Assembly (NCBI RefSeq): GCF_008868125.1
Contig: NZ_WAAQ01000002.1
Span: 744,001 to 808,000 of the forward strand
DNA length: 64,000 bases
Source of the DNA: Microbacterium maritypicum
GTDB lineage: Bacteria; Actinomycetota; Actinomycetes; Actinomycetales; Microbacteriaceae
Direction of reading: 5' to 3'
Shown here: in pieces, positions 23,796 to 29,468 of the stretch
How positions within the stretch are numbered: position 1 is the first letter of the stretch
Layout: every line of letters begins with the position of its first letter
Program-made: the position numbers and the translations under genes
The notes under the pieces: generated by a model
Databases searched by the model: none
What the model saw: the letters and a program-made list of their open reading frames with translations, nothing else
Told to the model about the DNA's origin: nothing

Positions 23796-23801
23796 AGTCT
23801 A
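23796..23801 (-). promoter_or_regulatory. -10 box of leaderless mRNA for the YrdB-like gene
   Basis: On the minus strand TAGACT lies exactly six bases before the ATG at 23789. Its first three bases are the stop codon of the sigma-fusion gene. Confidence 0.5.
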
Positions 23802-25847
23802 TTCGGCGACGGGGGAGTCCTCGGTCGGGACGGCGCCCGCCTCGACGGGCGCGGCGACATCGGCGACCTTGGTCGTGATCGGCTCCTGCCCCACGGGAGC
23901 GGGAATCACCGGCTCGGCCACGACGGGTGCGGCCACGACGGGTGCGGCCACGACGGGTGCGACCTCGACGGGTGCGACCTCTGCCGGTGCGACCTCTGCC
24001 GGAGCTTCGTCGACGGGTGCGACCTCTGCGGGAGCATCGGTCGTGATGACGACATCGTCGACAGGAGCGGAGCTGACCGGGTTCTCATCGACGGGAGTCT
24101 GGTCGCTCTCCGTCGGGTCCTCCTCGACCGGACCCTCTTCGATCGGGATCTCGATGCCGGGGCGGTTGGGCTGCAGCGCGAGGAGAGTGGTGTCCGCGAA
24201 GGGCGCGTCGCCCGTATCGAGGACGTACCGGAAGGTGACCTTCGTCGAAGCGGCGAAGTAGTACTGGAACAGGCCGGGGCGCAGGTCGATCGCACCCGCT
24301 CCGGAGTCGTCGAGCACGATCGTGTCACCCCCGCCGAGGCTGCCGTCGAGAAGCGCTTCGACCGTCGCGCCTGGTGCGCCGGTGATCGGCACGCGGTAGT
24401 GCACGGTCAGCTCGTCGAAGACGATCGTCGCGGTCGTCCAGGTCGGCGCTTCCGTGGGAACACCGGGGTCGACGGGCTCGACGGGCTTCTCGGGCTCGAC
24501 CGGCTTCGTCGGTTCGACGGGGGCCGTGGGCGGGGTCGTGACGGGTGGCGGTGTGACGGCCGGTGCGGACGACGGATCCTGTCCTGGCTCCGCCTGATCG
24601 TCGGTCGGGGGCGCGGGCGCCTCCTCCGGCACGATGACGGGCGTTTCGATGATGACGGGCTCGTCGAGGCTCATCTTCTCGTCGGGACCGACGTCCGCCG
24701 AGATCGAGGACGGGTCTTCGTCCCCGGCGTTCGGGAGCGAGGTCGCGGGATCGGCTCCGGCGAGTCCGGGGATGATCGTGGAGGCGGCGACGACGCCAGC
24801 GACGACCAGTGCGGCCGAGCCCACGCCGACGAGTGCACCGATCCCGGTGAACACCCCGCCCGCCGCGCCGGCACCGGCGCCGGCGGAAGAGCCCGCCGTG
24901 CCGCCTGCCGAGCCGCCGGCGCCGGAACCTGAACCGCCCGAAGCGGCGAGGCCCGTCGCGGCGTGCGTGACACCGGGGTCCCCGGCGAAGACGGCACCCG
25001 GAATGCTCGACGGCATGGCCGCCAGAGCGACGATGGGCGTGCCCGCACCCTGCAGCGTGGCGAGGTAGCCTGCGGCACCGGTGACGCCGAGCACGAGAGG
25101 CAGCAGCACCAGGGCGAGACGCTTGGAGACGTCTTTCGCCTCGGCGGCGACGATCATGCATCGGGCGCACTCGTCGAGGTGGAGCTCGAGTCGCTTGTGA
25201 TCGCGGGTGCTGAGGTTGCCGCGAGAATAGGCGCCGAGGTGCTCGATGGTCCACTGGCATTCGGAGCCGTCTTCGGCGCTGCGCAGATGCGCCTGGATCC
25301 AGGCTTCACGAAGGCCTTCACGCGCACGGAACGCCAACTGCGACACGGCGCCGGCCTTCATCCCGAGGAGGGGCCCGACCTCCTGCGGCTTCATCTGCTC
25401 GATCTCGGTGTACCAGAGCACCTCCTGCCAGCGGCTGGGGAGACTGCGGAAGGCCTGCGCGGTGAGGCTGCGATCGAGCGCCTCGCTCGCCGCCTGGTCG
25501 GTGGTGTCGGGGTCGGCGACGGTGTCGAGTTCGTCGATCGCGGTCTCGCGACGAGCACGTCCCCACCCTGCCGCCGTGTTGCGGATGCTCGTGAAGAGGT
25601 AGGCGCGGAAGGAGCCGTTGGGGCCGCCGCCCTTGATGATCGCCTGATAGATGCGCGTGTAGGACTCCTGCACGAGGTCATCGGGATCGATGGAGGAGGT
25701 GACCGAGCGCGCCACGGAGAGCCCCGACGGGTAATGCCGTCTCCAGAGTTCACCGAACGCCTCCGTGTCTCCCGAACGGGTGCGGAGGATCAGGTCGGCG
25801 TCGCCGATCGTTTCGTCGTGAGTCGTGTTCTCTTCGTGCACAATCAT
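23799..25847 (-). CDS. Membrane-tethered ECF-type sigma factor fused to a zinc anti-sigma domain and an extracytoplasmic tail
   Basis: 682 residues in one frame. Residues about 15-90 are sigma region 2 (DPDDLVQESYTRIYQ) and 130-190 are region 4 (LPSRWQEVLWYTEIEQMKPQ onward). Residues about 200-240 are a zinc anti-sigma motif, with the HLDECARC arrangement H-x3-C-x2-C. Two membrane segments follow (about 245-270 and 330-365), separated by a Gly/Ser/Ala-rich stretch. The rest is a Pro/Glu-rich stalk, a small beta-rich domain (TATIVFDELTVHYRVPITG onward) and an Ala-Pro-Val repeat tail. The DNA-binding part is thus locked to its own anti-sigma domain and to the membrane, so release may need proteolysis or an external signal. 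It resembles sigma-ZAS fusions known in actinobacteria. Its upstream region shares a promoter-like block with the repeated RNA units next door. Confidence 0.85.
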   Translation of the reverse strand: MIVHEENTTHDETIGDADLILRTRSGDTEAFGELWRRHYPSGLSVARSVTSSIDPDDLVQESYTRIYQAIIKGGGPNGSFRAYLFTSIRNTAAGWGRARRETAIDELDTVADPDTTDQAASEALDRSLTAQAFRSLPSRWQEVLWYTEIEQMKPQEVGPLLGMKAGAVSQLAFRAREGLREAWIQAHLRSAEDGSECQWTIEHLGAYSRGNLSTRDHKRLELHLDECARCMIVAAEAKDVSKRLALVLLPLVLGVTGAAGYLATLQGAGTPIVALAAMPSSIPGAVFAGDPGVTHAATGLAASGGSGSGAGGSAGGTAGSSAGAGAGAAGGVFTGIGALVGVGSAALVVAGVVAASTIIPGLAGADPATSLPNAGDEDPSSISADVGPDEKMSLDEPVIIETPVIVPEEAPAPPTDDQAEPGQDPSSAPAVTPPPVTTPPTAPVEPTKPVEPEKPVEPVDPGVPTEAPTWTTATIVFDELTVHYRVPITGAPGATVEALLDGSLGGGDTIVLDDSGAGAIDLRPGLFQYYFAASTKVTFRYVLDTGDAPFADTTLLALQPNRPGIEIPIEEGPVEEDPTESDQTPVDENPVSSAPVDDVVITTDAPAEVAPVDEAPAEVAPAEVAPVEVAPVVAAPVVAAPVVAEPVIPAPVGQEPITTKVADVAAPVEAGAVPTEDSPVAE
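23916..24035 (-). repeat. Eight tandem 15-bp units in the sigma-fusion tail
   Basis: Eight consecutive in-frame 15-base units, most reading GGCCACGACGGGTGC or GACCTCTGCCGGTGC on the plus strand. They encode a five-residue repeat of the APVVA / APAEV kind. Copy number changes here would keep the frame and alter the length of the surface tail. Confidence 0.75.
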
Positions 25848-25884: not shown

Positions 25885-25921
25885 GAGACGCATGAGAGCG
25901 CCTCTCATCACGCGACTTCTC
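25885..25921 (-). promoter_or_regulatory. Candidate autoregulated ECF promoter of the sigma-fusion gene
   Basis: On the minus strand GAGAAGTCGCGTGATGA (25921-25905) is followed by 14 bases and CGTCTC (25890-25885), then TTCCCGTAGAGGC. The same block with the same 14-base spacing occurs on the plus strand at 26047 and 26296. The CGTC core is typical of ECF -10 elements. Transcription would begin about 30 bases before the sigma ATG. Confidence 0.6.
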
Positions 25922-26046
25922 CATTCTCTCGCGAATCTCCCAGGGAAGCCACCCTCTCCGCGAACTCCAAGCCGATGCCCGGGTTCGCGCGAGGGGGCCT
26001 CCGGCGGCGTCTGCAGACGGTATCCGAAACTCCTTCGAAGATTTTC

Positions 26047-26083
26047 GAGAAGTCGCGTAATGAATCGGGAGGGGCGTCGTCTC
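26047..26083 (+). promoter_or_regulatory. ECF-type promoter of repeat RNA, copy 1
   Basis: GAGAAGTCGCGTAATGA at 26047-26063, 14 bases, then CGTCTC at 26078-26083 and ATCCCATAGAGAC. It matches the block upstream of the adjacent sigma-fusion gene, so that sigma factor is the obvious candidate to read it. Confidence 0.55.
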
Positions 26084-26088
26084 ATCCC

Positions 26089-26250
26089 ATAGAGACAGCC
26101 GTGAGGATCCCACCGGGGGGCGGGATCCAGGCACTGGTGCGGGGGGTATTCGCGCCGGTCGGGCGGGTCGGGAGCCTCGGGGGAGGAGAGCCCGGCCGCC
26201 CGTCTCACGAGGGGGAATGAGGCCGCCGATCTGGGGAACGGCGGCCTCCC
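26089..26250 (+). ncRNA. Candidate small RNA, copy 1 (about 162 nt)
   Basis: Predicted transcript from the ECF-type promoter to the hairpin terminator at 26219-26248. Internal stems are GGATCCC / GGGATCC (26105-26111 with 26122-26128, loop with six Gs) and CGGGCGG / CCGCCCG (26160-26166 with 26196-26202), enclosing a purine-rich GGGGGAGGAGAG. A 39-codon GTG frame (26101-26220) exists but has no ribosome site. Its stop codon is the only transcribed base change between copies, so coding is unlikely. Read on the minus strand the loops are C-rich (CCCCCC twice), reminiscent of actinobacterial 6C RNA, but promoter and terminator order favour the plus strand. Confidence 0.5.
26219..26248 (+). terminator. 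Terminator of repeat RNA, copy 1
   Basis: Perfect 10-bp stem GAGGCCGCCG / CGGCGGCCTC with a ten-base loop, followed by CCACACGTTTCG. Confidence 0.65.
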
Positions 26251-26276
26251 ACACGTTTCGATCCGAGGATCGGGAT

Positions 26277-26303
26277 GACTTCTCGAAAGATTTTCGAGAA
26301 GTC
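26277..26303. repeat. Perfect 27-base palindrome at the -35 region of copy 2
   Basis: Arms GACTTCTCGAAA and TTTCGAGAAGTC flank the loop GAT. The right arm runs into the conserved GAGAAGTC of the promoter block. Copy 1 has only a decayed left arm (about 7 of 11 positions). It may be an operator or an RNA hairpin. Confidence 0.6.
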
Positions 26304-26332
26304 GCGTAATGAATCGGGATGAGCATCGTCTC
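26296..26332 (+). promoter_or_regulatory. ECF-type promoter of repeat RNA, copy 2
   Basis: GAGAAGTCGCGTAATGA at 26296-26312, 14 bases, then CGTCTC at 26327-26332. The two conserved blocks are identical to copy 1, while three of the 14 spacer bases differ, which is what selection on promoter elements would leave. Confidence 0.55.
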
Positions 26333-26337
26333 ATCCC

Positions 26338-26499
26338 ATAGAGACAGCCGTGAGGATCCCACCGGGGGGCGGGATCCAGGCACTGGTGCGGGGGGTATTC
26401 GCGCCGGTCGGGCGGGTCGGGAGCCTCGGGGGAGGAGAGCCCGGCCGCCCGTCTCACGAGGGGGAACGAGGCCGCCGATCTGGGGAACGGCGGCCTCCC
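26338..26499 (+). ncRNA. Candidate small RNA, copy 2 (about 162 nt)
   Basis: Predicted twin of the first RNA, differing by one transcribed base (T26218 in copy 1, C26467 here). It has the same internal stems and ends at the hairpin 26468-26497. Read-through beyond the terminator would be antisense to the 3' end of nagA. Confidence 0.5.
26468..26497 (+). terminator. Terminator of repeat RNA copy 2, facing nagA
   Basis: Perfect 10-bp stem GAGGCCGCCG / CGGCGGCCTC. Being symmetrical it can also stop nagA transcription arriving on the minus strand. Confidence 0.65.
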
Positions 26500-26558: not shown

Positions 26559-27731
26559 TCAGACGAGCAGCCGTGGTCCTGACCACACGCGCGCGACGCG
26601 CAGATCCGCATCCAGAAGCACGGCATCGCCGAGCATTCCGGTGGTCAGGCTGCCGAGGGATGCATCGCGTCCGATCGCACGCGCCGGTGTCTGCGTGAGT
26701 GCGCGAACGGCTTCGGGAAGCGCCACTCCCGCCTGCACGGCGCGCTGCAGGGCCACGTCCTGCGTGAGCGTGGAGCCGGCGATCGACCCGGTGTCATCGG
26801 CCCTCGCTACGCCGTTCTCGACCGTGACGCTCACGGCCCCGAGGTCGTAGTGGCCGTCGGCGCTGCCCGCAGCCGCCATCGCATCGGTGATCAGTGCCAC
26901 GCGTGCGGGTGCGGAGTCGAACACGAGCTTGACGACGTGCGGATCGAGGTGCACGTTGTCGGCGATGGCCTCGAGCACCACCCGGTGATCGGCTGCCGCT
27001 GCCAGCACCGGTCCAGGAGCACGGTGATGGATGCCCGGCATCGCGTTGAACGCGTGGGTGAGGATGGAGGCCCCCGCCTCGAAGGCGGCGACGGCCATCG
27101 TGGCGTCCGCATCCGTGTGGCCGACGGCAGCGGCCGAGCCCGCGGCCACGATCTGCCTGATCGCGTCGAGCCCGCCGGGCAGCTCCGGCGCGATCGTGAT
27201 CTGGCGGACGGTGCCGCGTCCGGCATCGAGCAGGAGGGCGACATCCGCCGCCGTCGGGTGACGCAGCAGCGACGGTTCGTGCGCGCCGTGGTGCCCGGGG
27301 TCGAGGAACGGGCCCTCGAGGTGCGAACCCAGGATGTCCGCATCCGTCTCGGTGAGATCGGCGATGAGCGCGACACTGCGGGCGAGCGACTCAAGGGGCG
27401 CCGTGACGAGCGAGATGACAGCGCGGGTGGTGCCGTGCGCACGATGCATCTCGCGCCCGGTGCGGATCGCCTCCACGCCGTCGTCGAATGCGGCGCCGGC
27501 GCCGCCGTGGCCGTGGATGTCGACGAATCCGGGAGTGAGCAGGGCGCCGGGACCGGCGAGGGCCACCGCATCGACGACCTCATCCGCCGCGGTCCACTCC
27601 GATCCCGTCCCGCGGCCGGTGACGACGCCGTCCTGGATGCGGACCCAGCCGTCCTCGACGATGTCGCCGCCGTCGACGATCCGTGCGGAGTGGATGACCA
27701 GCGAACCGGTCGCGGAGGAGTGGGTGATCAA
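26559..27731 (-). CDS. nagA: N-acetylglucosamine-6-phosphate deacetylase
   Basis: Removes acetate from GlcNAc 6-phosphate to give GlcN 6-phosphate, the substrate of NagB. The 390 residues are normal. Seen: PGFVDIHGHGGAG (metal His pair), the metal-binding HLEGPFLD, VGHTDAD, LTHAFNAMPGIHHRAPG, and ITDAMAAAG with the catalytic Asp. Its start overlaps the end of the upstream GH20 gene by four bases, so hexosaminidase and deacetylase are coupled. The 3' end faces the twin RNA units. Confidence 0.94.
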   Translation of the reverse strand: MITHSSATGSLVIHSARIVDGGDIVEDGWVRIQDGVVTGRGTGSEWTAADEVVDAVALAGPGALLTPGFVDIHGHGGAGAAFDDGVEAIRTGREMHRAHGTTRAVISLVTAPLESLARSVALIADLTETDADILGSHLEGPFLDPGHHGAHEPSLLRHPTAADVALLLDAGRGTVRQITIAPELPGGLDAIRQIVAAGSAAAVGHTDADATMAVAAFEAGASILTHAFNAMPGIHHRAPGPVLAAAADHRVVLEAIADNVHLDPHVVKLVFDSAPARVALITDAMAAAGSADGHYDLGAVSVTVENGVARADDTGSIAGSTLTQDVALQRAVQAGVALPEAVRALTQTPARAIGRDASLGSLTTGMLGDAVLLDADLRVARVWSGPRLLV

Positions 27732-29427: not shown

Positions 29428-29468
29428 TAGGAACACCCCTTTCGAATCCGTTGTCAAAGGAGCACGTC

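Follow-up and report, generated by a model that had tools for sequence, protein, structure and literature searches.

Predicted structured RNAs with G-rich loops adjoin a putative membrane-tethered ECF sigma factor in Microbacterium and share its promoter element

The window, the whole stretch of DNA analysed here, comprises 64,000 nucleotides of Microbacterium maritypicum (assembly GCF_008868125.1, contig NZ_WAAQ01000002.1, positions 744,001 to 808,000). Between nagA and a gene for an ECF-type sigma factor it carries two 213-bp units, both on the plus strand, at 26038-26250 (copy 1) and 26287-26499 (copy 2). An earlier reading made from the letters alone (the sequence-only reading) had described these units as nearly identical, with four differing bases, and direct comparison bears this out: the mismatches fall at 26071/26320, 26073/26322, 26076/26325 and 26218/26467 (copy 1/copy 2), the fourth changing TGA to CGA, so that the stop codon of the only GTG-started frame of copy 1 is indeed lost in copy 2. 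The units are 98% identical to each other, or 79% once their flanks are counted, and the repeat similarity reaches slightly upstream of them as a 222-nt family at 26029 and 26278 (96%). A DNA search of the 3.67-Mb genome at E<=0.001 found no copy beyond these two. The coordinates of the features of this region are collected in Table 1. Two perfectly matching 12-bp arms around a 3-nt loop form an inverted repeat (GACTTCTCGAAA-GAT-TTTCGAGAAGTC, 26277-26303) that overlaps the upstream edge of the second promoter; by eye the repeat is not clearly conserved, whereas AT-rich blocks are frequent at the corresponding position of other units. Elsewhere in the window a ZMP/ZTP riboswitch (RF01750, 29347-29431, plus strand, 50.7 bits) lies directly upstream of an ORF, named glyA-like by eye, that starts near 29451.

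Table 1. Features of the region between the sigma factor gene and nagA (window coordinates).
Feature	Position	Strand	Description
ECF sigma factor gene	23799-25847	-	682 aa; sigma factor fused to zf-HC2 anti-sigma-like domain, long tail
Promoter of sigma gene	25885..25913	-	GCGTGATG 25906-25913, 15-nt spacer, CGTCTC 25885-25890
Promoter of RNA copy 1	26055..26083	+	GCGTAATG 26055-26062, 15-nt spacer, CGTCTC 26078-26083
Small RNA copy 1 (predicted)	26088-26250	+	covariance model R1 match 26088-26248, 152.1 bits; covariation
Final hairpin, copy 1	26219-26248	+	terminator-like; 10-bp stem, loop region CTGGGGA
Promoter of RNA copy 2	26304..26332	+	GCGTAATG 26304-26311, 15-nt spacer, CGTCTC 26327-26332
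Small RNA copy 2 (predicted)	26337-26499	+	fold, covariation, P1 permutation test, model match 26337-26497
Helix P1, copy 2	26341-26345/26451-26455	+	
H1, copy 2	26354-26377	+	loop GGGG 26364-26367
H2, copy 2	26382-26408	+	
H3, copy 2	26410-26450	+	loop GGGG 26428-26431
G-rich linker, copy 2	26456-26467	+	
Final hairpin, copy 2	26468-26497	+	
nagA	26559-27731	-	TIGR00221

The sigma protein matches Sigma70_r2, TIGR02937 (sigma70-ECF) and zf-HC2; sigma region 4 scores below the Pfam cut-off (20.7 vs 25.7 bits) yet is covered by TIGR02937. Hydrophobic peaks, the sole basis on which its membrane helices are predicted, occur at residues 244-262 and 336-354, with a third, Ala/Val/Pro-rich peak near 624-648. 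Since sigma domains, zf-HC2 domain and hydrophobic segments share one chain, the earlier description of a membrane-tethered sigma factor is a fair one. When the sigma gene is compared, M. maritypicum and M. oxydans are among the closest relatives that bear a name, and both carry the locus. The N-terminal part of the protein (240 aa) has matches at E<=1e-40 in 266 of 366 Microbacterium genomes, and homologues of the sigma half are found at E<=1e-30 in 38 of the 85 genera sampled in the family, a count that includes the genus itself and paralogues; the best homologue outside the genus shows 68% identity.

The body of copy 2 folds on the plus strand at -96.3 kcal/mol (z = -4.3), and none of 200 shuffles folded equally low. 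From the fetched loci 124 full units were aligned and reduced to 72 non-redundant ones, of which 45 form alignment A1, the units left out being mainly the more divergent and degenerate; A1 gave the covariance model R1, which matches copy 2 at 150.4 bits by construction, since copy 2 heads the alignment. The modelled RNA is a branched structure, in which helix P1 closes H1, H2 and H3, followed by a final hairpin and bearing several unpaired G-tracts. In a 43-pair structure, which excludes 12 of 55 pairs (five outer P1 pairs and seven that are poorly aligned), 95.0% of cells are paired against 88.7% in shuffles and the covariation score is 0.284 against 0.164, in each case with 0 of 500 shuffles as high, although kinship alone can lift these two measures above all shuffles. 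The counts of changed pairs and pair types are much less open to this effect, and both sides have changed in 27 pairs, against 12.4 +- 2.0 after shuffling (0/500 as high). Sliding the partner by one to three columns lowers pairing to 37-63%. P1, judged separately, has a mean score of 13.0 against 12.26 +- 0.25 when permuted, a small margin that 1 of 300 permutations equalled; it reads GAGAC/GUCUC in copy 2 and UGAGAGC/GCUCUCA, CGGAGC/GCUCCG and others elsewhere. The structured body with internal stems that had been proposed is thus upheld by the fold and by covarying pairs.

Because G·U outnumbers A·C, the plus strand is the RNA: among the 43 pairs the counts are 134 and 28, or 85 and 26 once the reference's own G·U pairs are removed. 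Larger and partly misaligned pair sets also favour the plus strand, less strongly, with G·U:A·C ratios of 213:90, of 142:81 for the pairs common to both folds, and of 142:118 for the pairs of the minus-strand fold. Near-invariant G-runs occupy three hairpin loops (CACCGGGGGGCGG, CCTCGGGGGAGGAG and CTGGGGA), the loop letters being nearly invariant while the stems vary, and the 45 sequences hold on average 4.2 largely unpaired G-tracts of at least four residues per RNA, compared with 0.70 in mononucleotide shuffles. The units had also been said to end in a perfect 10-bp terminator stem. Both copies do have this stem (26219-26228/26239-26248 in copy 1, 26468-26477/26488-26497 in copy 2), yet it is not followed by a T-run (U-tract), and we therefore call the final hairpin terminator-like rather than a terminator.

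A protein product was considered and rejected. Internal stops interrupt the three plus-strand frames in 27, 22 and 21 of the 45 aligned sequences and the minus-strand frames in 10, 22 and 12, so that none of the six frames is open in every sequence, and the spacing of the invariant loops varies by non-multiples of 3. A conserved frame in related genomes would have spoken for a protein, and none was kept open throughout; compensatory changes, the plus-strand G·U excess, the loop spacing and the stops that part of the sequences have in every frame all agree with the earlier suggestion that the product is probably RNA.

By DNA search, relatives of the unit turned up in 123 of the 366 Microbacterium genomes, with short matches among the weakest rows. 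The covariance-model search of related genomes that had been suggested as a check recovered the family at E<=0.001 in 125 of the 366 (119 of the 340 good ones). In a family-wide sample of 249 genomes from 85 genera, at least four of the genomes belonging to the window's genus, R1 matched two genomes, both Microbacterium, and none in the 84 other genera; both genome searches used stricter Infernal filters, which lose some weak matches. In this sample the RNA does not occur beyond a single genus. Sigma homologues are frequent outside it, without the RNA in the same sample and under the same filters. Known RNA families were set aside, as Rfam at gathering and permissive thresholds gave nothing above its cut-off in the intergenic region, the best score there being 23.5 bits for asX1 against a cut-off of 70, and a search of 20 related loci returned a ZTP riboswitch only. 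A mobile or dispersed repeat was likewise rejected: the genome holds just two copies, and most loci are fixed between the sigma gene and nagA.

The twin arrangement is not conserved. Of 108 loci with full units, a single unit is present at 92 and a pair at 16; second units truncated by the end of a contig, such as that at L006, do not enter this split. In 13 of the 16 double loci the copies have diverged to 45-71% identity, flanks included, and in several species a unit is closer to its counterpart in another species than to its own twin. The twin copies are incidental. At least five genomes (G336, G335, G237, G125 and G178) carry an extra copy with neither sigma gene nor nagA within about 1.5 kb, at the second loci L069, L070, L089, L097 and L108. 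At the four second loci examined, the RNA lies downstream of an alpha/beta-hydrolase-like gene, between it and a gene on the opposite strand, which is peptidase-like in three cases and different in L069; these genes were named by eye. These units keep promoter, body and final hairpin, and since complete units thus occur away from the sigma gene, the unit is autonomous. A few more weak second matches to R1 were seen, for example at G286:C2, G295:C15 and G197:C5.

The promoter-like block that had been noted in each copy is real and of ECF type. It consists of GCGTAATG (R variants allowed), exactly 15 nt and C[G/A]TCTC in 123 of 124 RNA units; spacings from 11 to 19 were checked and only 15 was found, and the remaining unit has an altered -10. 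The second base of the -10 is G in 110 of the 123 units and A in 13. ECF promoters typically have AAC in the -35 and CGT in the -10 element (PMC8103513); here the CGT is present, whereas AAC is absent from the -35 element. From the -10 element, the RNA of copy 1 would start at about 26088-26091. Of the 104 loci that bear the sigma gene, 82 have the same element in front of it, always with a 15-nt spacer, which is a sign of autoregulation, and a profile built from the RNA units matches the opposite-strand sigma-promoter site in about 80 loci (81 promoter-end matches were counted, of which the one in L107 belongs to an RNA unit). In the other 22 loci the sigma promoter falls outside the pattern, several differing by one or two bases when inspected by eye. 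Upstream of the sigma -35, at about 25921-25933 on the minus strand, lies a GAGAATGG block, judged by eye to be conserved and present at other loci too, which might serve as the -10 element of an additional promoter of housekeeping type.

Genome-wide, the strict motif CGCGTRATG-N13..17-CRTCTC occurs at three sites in the 3.67-Mb genome, those of the sigma gene and both RNAs, and its reversed control at none. A looser form (any base before GCGT, spacer 14-16) gives six sites, again with none in the control; one of the three extra sites, L191, is at the start of a plus-strand ORF. Allowing up to two mismatches raises the number of sites to 47, but the control then has 20, and many of these weak sites are therefore noise. 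Across the genus the looser pattern occurs in 256 of 366 genomes, counts that we do not take as evidence because genomes negative for the RNA match as well.

RNA and sigma factor are closely linked. RNA units or pieces were found at 110 loci, 104 of which hold the adjoining sigma gene, and the other six are the five second loci and one contig edge. Among named GTDB sigma loci, R1 matches 58 of 80 at E<=0.01, upstream of the sigma gene and on the opposite strand. When the tables were compared by eye, sigma (E<=1e-40) was present in 124 of 125 RNA-positive genomes, the exception being G193, whose RNA lies at a contig edge, so that this is the one match to R1 among the 100 genomes without a sigma match at that threshold. 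Conversely, 142 of 266 sigma-positive genomes, compared in the same way, show no R1 match. Twenty such R1-negative sigma loci were fetched; all 20 have the sigma gene and 19 a nagA match, and a search at the level of the locus gave a match at E<=1 in 15, six of them at E<=0.001 (L163, 57.1 bits; L153, 40.5; L160, 31.9; L148, 31.8; L157, 27.1; L155, 26.9). Loci L149, L150, L156, L161 and L164 gave none at E<=1, although L150 and L156 have profile matches. In the more distantly related members of the genus, then, the RNA either has diverged or is missing. The sequence-only reading had joined twin RNAs and tethered sigma factor in one regulatory module; the common promoter strengthens the module, and the twin part falls away.

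Other genes may belong to the same regulon. Twenty sites of the same form, chosen by eye as examples among the matches listed and not as a count, comprise five at sigma loci and 15 elsewhere. In L170 the site precedes the gene of a secreted protein that bears SpaA_3 and DUF7507 domains, and L187 looks similar by eye; the sites in L172, L185 and L175 precede short ORFs that by eye resemble membrane proteins, and those in L168, L176 and L178 precede strong folds without a clear ORF. L176 (genome G043) holds, close to its promoter at 1499(-), a structured segment that differs in sequence yet again shows the hairpin loops CCGGGGGG and CTGGGGA; this segment is probably a paralogous RNA, and genes nearby have apparent signal sequences. 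In the window's genome one-mismatch sites lie upstream of two surface-protein-like ORFs whose start codons were chosen by eye, both frames being open further upstream: L229:1925-3577(-), SpaA/pilin-like, with a SpaA domain and an LPXTG-anchor match above cut-off, and L230:1547-3073(+), with a Big_8 Ig domain and an anchor seen by eye and in a domain-model match below cut-off.

The same genome contains, at L228:930-3701 (-), an ECF-type sigma gene, a SipW-like signal peptidase and two SipW/TasA-type secreted proteins, and both secreted-protein genes have GTTATGAA...CGTCTC upstream, which resembles the element of the sigma gene and the RNAs. These SipW/TasA-like genes (L195/L196) were considered as targets of the window's sigma factor and not adopted, because a separate ECF-type sigma gene is beside them. 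The L196 leader contains CCCCAGA and CCCCGG, complementary by eye to two of the RNA loops.

On this evidence we consider it probable that the locus encodes an ECF sigma factor which activates its own gene and has, as its best-matching targets, regulatory RNAs with G-rich loops and about four unpaired G-tracts each, comparable to RpoE with MicA and RybB or to EcfG with GsrN. According to this model, both units would be read on the plus strand by RNA polymerase carrying the adjoining sigma factor, as the promoter evidence suggests. The sigma factor would be kept inactive at the membrane through its fused zinc-finger and transmembrane part; an envelope signal would free the sigma part, by analogy with ECF52/53, and the freed sigma would activate its own gene and the RNAs from the best-matching promoters in the genome. 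The G-rich loops may then pair with C-rich stretches of mRNA, as the conservation of the loops and the precedents of MicA/RybB and GsrN suggest, and would do so without Hfq, for which a search of the window's genome (PF17209) gave no match. Such pairing might shift the expression of envelope, surface or secreted proteins, as MicA and RybB do under RpoE. The regulator probably acts partly via RNA and not through proteins alone, since RNA genes appear to be switched on by the membrane-anchored regulator next to them.

A more far-reaching version is offered tentatively, as a possibility. The tethered sigma factor might have the RNA family as its main conserved output, with further RNAs or surface proteins recruited in some species, and the RNAs might work through their G-loops, either by pairing at several sites with C-tracts in Hfq-free, high-GC bacteria or as a G-tract scaffold or quadruplex for a protein. 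We know of no described small RNA with a G-loop mechanism of this kind. If the RNAs do act through their G-tracts, they would be the mirror image of the C-rich-loop RNAs GsrN and 6C RNA and an instance of Hfq-free mRNA regulation in GC-rich bacteria. Sigma factors of this kind are widespread in the family, and the promoter element together with the covariance model makes the regulon testable at once.

The features that suggest pairing with mRNA could also be read in other ways. The RNA might serve as a protein-binding decoy or scaffold of the CsrB/RsmZ type with its invariant G-rich loops as protein sites, and near-invariant loops on varying stems would suit protein recognition as well; CsrA itself is encoded in the window's genome (74.3 bits). 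However, the many loop GGA motifs of CsrB/RsmZ were not found: each RNA holds on average 0.98 unpaired GGA, no more than the 1.15 of mononucleotide shuffles, and ANGGA falls below its shuffled level (0.36 against 0.66), though GGA in total is commoner (6.2 vs 4.6). CsrA is for these reasons an unlikely partner, and a decoy, kept only as a rival reading, seems to us improbable. The csrA gene (L311:1402-1653, minus strand) adjoins an ORF named flhA-like by eye. The divergent neighbour, the common promoter element, the conserved synteny and a strict motif search that yields nothing but the sigma gene and the two RNAs would also fit an RNA without a wider regulon, which pairs with the leader of the sigma mRNA and so controls only the factor that switches it on. 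Yet by eye the H1 loop is complementary to just 6 nt of the sigma leader, a match not kept in all leaders, and copies of the RNA also lie far from the sigma gene, which leaves this reading little probability.

Two further alternatives concern strand and regulator. The element could serve another ECF sigma factor, the adjoining one being merely co-regulated with the RNAs, and a candidate exists in the ECF-type gene at L228:930-1592 beside the SipW/TasA-like genes and their similar upstream sites; but with the sigma gene adjoining the RNA at nearly all loci (104 of 110) we regard this as very unlikely. A functional minus strand, with C-rich loops and forming part of a long nagA-sigma leader comparable with 6C RNA, might be imagined from the fact that this strand folds almost equally well against shuffles (z -4.0). 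The RNA promoter, however, has the same orientation relative to the RNA as the sigma promoter has relative to its gene, the genome has no RF01066 match (in control genomes 1 of 14 matched, below cut-off), and the counts of G·U and A·C among the 43 pairs led us to reject the minus strand, which we find scarcely credible. The reading we prefer remains that of an autoregulated sigma factor acting through plus-strand RNAs.

Several parts of this arrangement have counterparts in described systems. The layout of the sigma protein agrees with that of the fused anti-sigma factors of groups ECF48, ECF52 and ECF53, which combine sigma regions 2 and 4, a zinc finger, one or two membrane helices and a long extension (PMC8999054); by domain matches and hydropathy, the ECF52/53-type set of regions 2 and 4, zinc finger and membrane helix is found here in one chain. 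Proteolytic release is expected rather than shown for ECF48/53, one ECF52 member being best understood, and that paper does not use the term small RNA (PMC8999054). Available literature on Microbacterium small RNAs, ECF sigma factors and RNA-seq, and on ECF53 in Actinobacteria, yielded no description of the present system.

In E. coli and Salmonella the strongest promoters of RpoE, an ECF envelope-stress sigma factor, drive MicA and RybB (PMC7602753, PMC8103513). The likeness lies in the best promoters of an ECF factor leading to small RNAs, here two side by side. MicA and RybB depend on Hfq, of which the Microbacterium genome shows no match, and the two Microbacterium RNAs are near-identical, their genes adjoining the sigma gene. 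To our knowledge, the genes for MicA and RybB are not adjacent to their sigma gene. The actinobacterial 6C RNA (RF01066; PMC9569102) also has homopolymer loops, but these are C-rich, and no RF01066 match above the gathering score was found in the window or the genome. A further parallel is GsrN of Caulobacter, a small RNA under the ECF factor EcfG/SigT whose predicted homologues are typically near core regulator genes, including that of its sigma factor, whose sequence matches are limited to one family, and in which a homopolymer loop is the most conserved part (PMC5869019). ECF control (predicted here), a gene near the sigma gene and a conserved homopolymer loop are common to both RNAs. GsrN, however, binds G-rich mRNA sites through a loop of six C residues, whereas the Microbacterium loops are G-rich, and the Microbacterium sigma factor, unlike that of GsrN, is a tethered fusion. 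Because small RNAs under ECF factors, even adjoining them, have already been described, the circuit is of a known kind, and the Microbacterium locus adds to it a new RNA family, arranged in a new way.
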